A DNA stretch of 64,000 bases from Hyphomicrobiales bacterium (GTDB lineage: Bacteria > Pseudomonadota > Alphaproteobacteria > Rhizobiales > Phreatobacteraceae): NCBI GenBank assembly GCA_017304475.1, contig JAFKKV010000017.1:124001-188000 (forward strand), written 5' to 3'. The notes under the pieces are model-generated. The model saw only the letters and a list, made by a program, of their open reading frames with translations, searched no databases and was not told the DNA's origin. Positions 5,407 to 5,555 of the stretch are shown piece after piece (positions within the stretch are counted from its first letter, which is position 1; each line of letters starts with the position of its first letter). Both the position numbers and the translations under genes were made by a program.

Positions 5407-5433
5407 AAAAAAAAGCCGCGCTGGGGGCGCGGC
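5407..5433 (-). terminator. Attenuator terminator in front of argC
   Basis: On the minus strand a perfect 7-bp GC stem (GCCGCGC, loop CCCCA, GCGCGGC) is followed at once by eight T residues. It lies between the leader ORF and the argC start, so it would stop transcription before argC. An upstream GCGCGCGCGG run just after the leader stop codon can pair with the CCGCGC 5' arm and would serve as the antiterminator. The CGACC of leader codons 5-6 can pair with GGTCG in that same segment. Confidence 0.85.
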
Positions 5434-5467
5434 GATCAGATCGATCGAGGCAAACGACCGCGCGCGC

Positions 5468-5518
5468 TCATCGGAGGATAAGGCTACGGCGTCGGGTGCT
5501 GGTCGAGATCGTGTTCAT
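5468..5518 (-). CDS. Arginine-rich leader peptide of the argC attenuator
   Basis: This 16-codon ORF encodes MNTISTSTRRRSLILR. Four of the sixteen residues are Arg, three of them consecutive (CGA CGC CGT), in front of an arginine biosynthetic gene. It ends 35 bases before the terminator stem. A -35/-10 pair places the transcript start within a few bases of the ATG, so the message may be leaderless, which is common for leader peptides in alphaproteobacteria. The parallel with trp and leu leader peptides is strong. Function is inferred from layout; I do not recall an established argC leader of this type. Confidence 0.72.
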   Translation of the reverse strand: MNTISTSTRRRSLILR

Positions 5519-5526
5519 GGCGCGCT

Positions 5527-5555
5527 TATTTGCTGTGGGGCCGTACCCCTGTCAA
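5527..5555 (-). promoter_or_regulatory. argC: Promoter of the argC leader transcript
   Basis: The minus strand has a consensus -35 TTGACA (5550-5555), a spacer of exactly 17 bp and a weak -10 CAAATA (5527-5532). The predicted start falls near 5520, right at the leader ORF ATG. It lies just past the stop of the GNAT gene, so argC has its own transcription unit. Confidence 0.65.

Follow-up and report, generated by a model that had tools for sequence, protein, structure and literature searches.

The window, the whole 64,000-nt stretch analysed here (G000:C47), carries argC on its minus strand behind a short open reading frame (ORF) containing Arg-Arg-Arg and an intrinsic terminator (Table 1). 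A GNAT acetyltransferase gene (6091–5570) and a cobalamin adenosyltransferase gene lie upstream on the same strand; the next long ORF past argC (565 aa) is on the opposite strand, and argC is thus probably the only gene under the element. The terminator (GCCGCGC-CCCCA-GCGCGGC-T8, 5433–5407) has seven G-C pairs, stands 58 nt from the argC ATG (5348) and was picked up by a scan in which terminator-like sites numbered three in 2.4 kb, versus 1.0 (sd 1.1) in shuffles. The promoter had been read in the preliminary description as TTGACA-17-CAAATA. A consensus scan of 2.4 kb calls no sigma-70 promoter and CAAATA makes a poor −10; what stands is the −35, and we make the promoter call not from the scan but because all 12 members of the genus described below have a TTGAC that starts 35–37 nt ahead of the leader ATG. 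Ten promoter-proximal small ORFs occur in the window, and RRR is found only in the argC leader. No Arg leader lies within 400 bp upstream of argG in the genome of the window.

Table 1. Parts of the argC leader region in the window.
Feature	Position	Strand	Basis
−35 hexamer TTGACA	5555-5550	-	sequence and genus conservation
−10-like CAAATA	5532-5527	-	17 nt from −35; weak match
Leader ORF MNTISTSTRRRSLILR, 16 codons + stop	5518-5468 (TGA 5470-5468)	-	sequence, genus alignment
Putative control codons Arg9-Arg10-Arg11, CGA CGC CGT	5494-5486	-	CGA CGC invariant in 12/12
Segment 1, GCCGT, last five bases of the Arg9-11 codons	5490-5486	-	RNAalifold consensus, paired with segment 2
Hairpin spanning ORF end and stop codon, 5482-5477 : 5472-5467	5482-5467	-	consensus fold, columns 37-42:47-52
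Post-stop alternative stretch GCGCGCGCGG	5467-5458	-	sequence
Segment 2, GCGCGGT, predicted antiterminator 5' arm right behind the stop codon	5463-5457	-	helix survey and masked folds
Small hairpin separating segments 2 and 3	5446-5434	-	columns 76-80:84-88; one compensatory change
Segment 3, GCCGCGC, terminator 5' arm	5433-5427	-	terminator scan, alignment, consensus fold
Segment 4, GCGCGGC, and T8 tract, intrinsic terminator	5421-5407	-	terminator scan, alignment
argC, N-acetyl-gamma-glutamyl-phosphate reductase, 352 aa	5348-4290	-	TIGR01850

The family of the window consists of one genus, which we take to be Phreatobacter, with 12 genomes; these are not independent, the window genome (G000) having in G011 a close relative whose argC is 98% identical. 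A leader and a terminator precede argC in all 12, an architecture that we call version A. Every leader is exactly 16 codons long, ends in CGA-UGA and aligns without a gap, with Arg at four or five codons (five in L084, L085, L090, L091 and L092). Codons 9 (CGA) and 10 (CGC) are identical and codon 16 is Arg (CGA) in 12/12; codon 11 is Arg in 10/12, and the two leaders without it (L086 and L089) have Arg at codon 7. CGA is rare in the window, making up 6 of the 283 Arg codons of eight ORFs taken as genes. R1, a covariance model built from these leaders, gave one match per genus genome, just upstream of argC, at E≤2.7e-28 (10 genus genomes were among the 249 drawn order-wide). Consistent with the layout first described from the window alone, the 16-codon ORF with its three Arg codons and the terminator are thus present as stated and kept in 12/12, the terminator being among the best conserved parts of the alignment.

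The RNAalifold consensus of these leaders pairs Arg codons 10–11 with the post-stop segment. It also includes the terminator, a hairpin that spans the stop codon and a further, small one; two-sided change is found in 1/23 consensus pairs. Segment 2 can pair with the 5' arm of the terminator, or with the bases next to that arm on the loop side, over 7 bp in 11/12 leaders and 6 bp in one, and both mutually exclusive stems are formable in 12/12. Pairing of segment 1 with segment 2 exceeded 0.5 in only 4/12 single-sequence folds. When full-length leaders were folded without a ribosome, the terminator was favoured in 12/12 and the partner holding segment 2 differed between genus members. Pairing of a G+C-rich post-stop segment with the 5' side of the terminator, proposed in the preliminary description, was therefore right in kind; the protector proposed there, CGACC of codons 5–6 with GGTCG, failed in the alignment, where it is confined to L001, L083 and L088 (3/12).

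We then folded the leaders under a ribosome mask, barring pairing from −15 nt to +12 nt around the first base of the A-site codon, on transcripts ending just before segment 4, a choice made after seeing the full-length folds. The antiterminator probability, as a mean of 12, was 0.39–0.53 at codons 2–6, 0.87–0.93 at codons 7–11 (0.93 at codon 9), 0.78–0.81 at codons 12–13, 0.60 and 0.47 at codons 14 and 15, 0.16 at codon 16 and 0.21 at the stop. The high plateau (codons 7–13) is wider than the Arg codons. Shuffling the post-stop region gave 0.34 stalled and 0.05 at the stop, the highest stalled value of 25 replicate means being 0.59. With no ribosome the antiterminator stayed below 0.5 in 9/12 leaders and was favoured in L086 (0.72), L088 (0.77) and L092 (0.61); stalling changed nothing in L092 (0.63 stalled), and L089 showed little contrast too (0.75). 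With segment 4 present, most stalled folds left the terminator at 0.8 or more; L083, L086, L088, L090, L091 and L093 each had one or more stalled states in which it dropped to 0.00–0.54. The expected effect of masking thus held in part: a stall at the Arg codons favours the antiterminator and a ribosome at the stop codon does not, but neighbouring codons have the same effect and full-length transcripts mostly fail to respond. Because the terminator wins most full-length stalled folds, the attenuator model needs co-transcriptional order.

How would such a leader control argC? Transcription would start at or beside the leader ATG, and the leader would be translated without a Shine-Dalgarno site, for which the leaderless trpL of Sinorhizobium is a precedent (Sinorhizobium meliloti belongs to the same order as the window bacterium). 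When Arg-tRNA is short, the ribosome would wait at Arg codons 9–11 and leave segment 2 free; the predicted 2:3 helix would be in place by the time segment 4 is synthesized, so that no terminator would form and argC would be transcribed. When Arg-tRNA is ample, the ribosome would reach the stop codon and cover segment 2, the predicted 3:4 stem would form and transcription would end at about 5407. We consider it highly probable that the argC leader is a ribosome-mediated transcription attenuator sensing charged Arg-tRNA. The basis of this reading is the conserved sequence, codons and stems together with the gene association, from which we infer translation, stalling, termination and the arginine response. 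Conservation of the Arg codons and of the competing stems had been named beforehand among its tests, and both were found.

In the preliminary description, ArgR was considered the usual arginine control of proteobacteria. ArgR is a protein repressor, and the ArgR/ARG box system controls arg genes; it shares control of arginine biosynthesis with the proposed attenuator but differs in acting through a protein. ArgR (PF01316) was found in 0/12 genus genomes and, above cut-off, in 0/249 sampled genomes of the order (one sub-threshold match, from another family), while 9/14 control genomes, including E. coli and B. subtilis, matched. No Rfam family, T-box included, matched at its gathering score: one search gave 17 bits at best versus a cut-off of 49.5, and another, of eight loci, gave 0 matches.

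A second architecture, version B, occurs in family f35, taken as Xanthobacteraceae. Its leader has about 24 codons with RRRR (for example MTTFSPAIALRRRRIVTARARFGV), follows TTGACC-17-CTATAT-like promoters and sits in RNA unlike that of version A. The source was a selection of 35 among 80 GTDB argC loci, a few of which end at or near the argC start; the 35 were chosen by a search for Arg-rich ORFs, so their Arg content is not independent, and R2, the covariance model built from these 35 leaders, rewards CGC repeats. R2 matched 47/80 argC loci at E<1e-5, namely the 35 and 12 others, 11 of these about 850 nt upstream of argC. Among 149 sampled f35 genomes it gave 92 matches in 86 genomes and 35/47 genera, and no match in 63 genomes. 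On the same strand and at most 2.5 kb upstream of argC lay 84 matches in 84/149 genomes (43 within 200 nt, two at 200–600 nt and 39 further), and all 84 matches with E≤2.9e-7 were linked to argC. The eight other matches in f35 are weak and look like chance. In 30/30 fetched f35 loci argC lay downstream, 22 of the long type and eight of the short type.

Several loci carry additional features. There is room for an intervening gene in 39/84 R2 matches; L014, L041 and L221 have a gene between the Arg leader and argC, alike by eye, which in L014 is FMN_bind_2 (PF04299, PaiB-like). At G199:C1:3536940-3539841, a short (TIGR01851) and a long argC stand in tandem behind one leader. L047, titled Streptomyces sp. 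AcH 505, has a Hyphomicrobiales-like argC with a version-B leader and is probably a contaminant contig.

The version-B alignment (A3) has 76 rows, 66 of them distinct, and 64/66 distinct leaders contain RRR or a longer run, the exceptions being L244 (TRRSR) and L008. The runs are spelled with CGC (204), CGT (48) and other codons (3). A TTG[AT][CG] motif lies 30–45 nt before the ATG in 65/66 leaders and at 35–37 nt in 63/66, and an SD-like GGAG, AGGA, GAGG or AAGG is missing from the 18 nt ahead of the ATG in all 66. In a control on 76 loci, 44 promoter-proximal small ORFs lay within 300 nt of argC, 40 of them with RRR; of 78 such ORFs elsewhere, 18 had RRR, and 12 of the 18 are leaders further upstream of argC.

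In version B, the predicted antiterminator arm (segment 1) lies inside the ORF, and the Arg run ends 7 nt before it in 27/34 leaders; a ribosome passing the Arg run would itself remove the antiterminator. Stem 1:2 is paired in 89.0% of cells, versus 34–61% when slid (66 distinct rows), with two-sided changes in 5/9 pairs and 21 cells; shuffles scored as high in 1/500 for cells paired, 13/500 for changed pairs, 2/500 for changed cells, 41/500 for types and 4/500 for the score. Stem 2:3, which was part of model R2 as stem 1:2 was not, is paired in 96.8% of cells versus 28–55% when slid, with two-sided changes in two pairs and 26 cells (shuffles as high: 0/500, 191/500, 0/500, 282/500 and 0/500 on the same measures). 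The measures that resist relatedness (pairs and types) are weak for 1:2 and unremarkable for 2:3, and we judge covariation of the aligned stems to be moderate, relatedness being still included in it. The competing stems expected in relatives are thus kept in both versions, but with limited covariation, confined to one pair in version A. Column 112 of segment 2 fits both of its partners (C-G-C 18, T-A-T 9, G-C-G 3), both pairs being standard in 38/62 triples versus 27.3 (sd 2.3) when shuffled (0/5000). Tracking of two partners is what alternative helices lead one to expect; a few events in related sequences could give the same.

Masked folds of 34 version-B leaders with RRR gave a P(1:2), an index that can exceed 1, of 0.68–1.05 up to the Arg run and 1.03 at the first Arg codon; it fell to 0.28 four codons past the first Arg and to 0.07–0.14 at five to eight, and was then mostly 0.18–0.47. 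With segment 3 present, P(2:3) was 0.41 at the first Arg, rose to 0.88 and settled at about 0.4–0.7 near the stop. When the codons behind the Arg run were permuted, P(1:2) was 0.80 versus 1.03 (highest of 15 means 0.91). Much of the 1:2 value is thus attributable to G+C content, and the 7-nt spacing between Arg run and segment 1 is better evidence than the fold value. The tail behind 2:3 has 4.6 T in 10 nt versus a background of 2.1, is pyrimidine-rich and lacks a clean U-tract; it may terminate weakly or stop transcription in some other way.

Are the two versions related? R2 matches the window leader exactly from its ATG (22.5 bits, E 0.0014 over 587 kb), with no match reaching E 0.001 in the whole G000 genome, and R1 scores 2/6 version-B loci weakly (17.9 and 11.7 bits). 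These cross-matches suggest common descent of versions A and B. Outside the genus but within the order, R1 gave 23 matches; three of the 13 fetched are Arg leaders. Two of them, L171 in f52 and L180 in f50, precede a short argC (TIGR01851) and have a terminator, as does L220 in f52. The third, L172 (G228:C2:300-1750), has an Arg leader (MSPYAINRRRQFENPARARGR) and a terminator in front of two genes, one of the RidA family (PF01042) and behind it one with an ACT_7 domain; these genes possibly form an arginine-linked operon. The other 10 fetched matches look like chance.

Across the class, R2 gave nine matches; of seven inspected (L270 and L271 left aside) two are Arg leaders, found in other orders of the class, and the other five look like chance. 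L269 has the leader MLNLANRNRRRRSPAALARAR (R1 52.3 bits) before an argD-like gene, whose protein best matches acetylornithine transaminase and is cut by the locus end; in the interval between leader and argD we noted, by eye, three direct copies of CTTCCAACGACGTCCAACCAG. L272 has the leader MISFAFLRSRRRRLSKRREGVRA before a short argC, with a hairpin and a weaker tail. An Arg leader was not seen in L219 (one other f52 genome) or L215–L218 (four other f50 genomes). In most other families sampled argC is without such a leader: rpsI or other genes stand in front of it, and no Arg leader is evident in 64 upstream regions of the long argC (less about eight, L123–L131) or, L220 excepted, in 50 of the short argC.

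What else could account for these leaders? A nascent Arg-rich peptide might arrest the ribosome in an arginine- or drug-dependent way, arrest rather than the supply of Arg-tRNA then setting the fold. The fungal arginine attenuator peptide is a case of such arrest, basic runs can slow ribosomes, and no other part of the peptide is as well conserved as the run of three to five Arg. We nevertheless regard arrest as improbable: it normally needs more fixed residues, whereas version-B peptides show little conservation beyond the run and range in length from 16 to 26 codons. The rare CGA fixed at codons 9 and 16 fits decoding speed, although RNA structure could fix CGA as well. It is barely credible that the element is a plain promoter and a constitutive terminator around a chance ORF, with conservation of promoter and terminator only. 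The high conservation of the terminator agrees with this, but the version-A ORF is gap-free in every genus member, Arg runs recur in version B within RNA of another kind, and the alternative stems are kept together with the fixed spacing of the Arg run to segment 1.

A further possibility is that, as with rnTrpL in Sinorhizobium, the main product of the element is a trans-acting small RNA (and a peptide), control of argC in cis being minor. Promoter and terminator would yield an RNA of about 110 nt, and PMC7298713 describes an attenuator RNA acting in trans in Sinorhizobium. We find such a main role very unlikely: linkage to argC in 84/84 strong R2 matches, together with the leaders before short argC and argD elsewhere, points to a role in cis.

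Textbook cases of attenuation respond to Trp, His, Leu, Ile-Val, Thr and Phe. The enterobacterial his, leu and trp operons have a short ORF with control codons as well as a protector, an antiterminator and a terminator. The same four parts are predicted here; the differences are that arginine would be sensed, that a Shine-Dalgarno site is absent and that version B makes do with three segments, its antiterminator arm being part of the ORF. Vitreschak et al. 2004 reportedly surveyed proteobacterial attenuators, and one paper is said to treat Rhizobiales argC orthologues. By description rather than by sequence, the closest system is S. meliloti trpL (rnTrpL/peTrpL) before trpE(G): according to PMC7298713 and PMC10117765, the latter on the S. 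meliloti small proteome, its RNA begins with the ATG of a 14-aa leader peptide and has consecutive control codons and a mutually exclusive antiterminator and terminator, with Trp codons and trpE in place of Arg codons and argC. The uORFC-8-2 motif before cysS in Rhodobacterales, described in a 26-genome RNA survey (PMC8632094), is likewise a predicted ribosome-mediated attenuator of Alphaproteobacteria with tandem control codons (positions 14–15), but these are Cys codons and the gene is that of an aminoacyl-tRNA synthetase. In B. japonicum, a map of transcription starts places 192 of them precisely on a start codon (PMC4842269). An arginine attenuator on a bacterial arg gene did not turn up in full-text searches of open-access PMC (PMC1273637 is the SAM-II paper), and its occurrence on argC is likely novel.

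We lean towards a broader view, in which these leaders form an undescribed class of arginine-sensing leaderless attenuators. In Alphaproteobacteria without ArgR, this class would be the chief means by which arginine controls argC, and at times argD. It would come in two designs, one of four segments and a stripped one of three, the latter with its antiterminator arm placed within the leader ORF. With no ArgR above cut-off in 249 genomes, arginine tuning there needs an explanation, and an attenuator offers a precise and testable one. If true, the element would switch on arginine synthesis during arginine shortage. The two covariance models, R1 and R2, can be used to map the element.

The genome of the window has a second argC-like gene on another contig (L002, G000:C75:570135-571100), 40% identical to the first, with no Arg leader evident in 600 bp upstream. 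This gene may be foreign, contamination of G000 being given as 5.4%.
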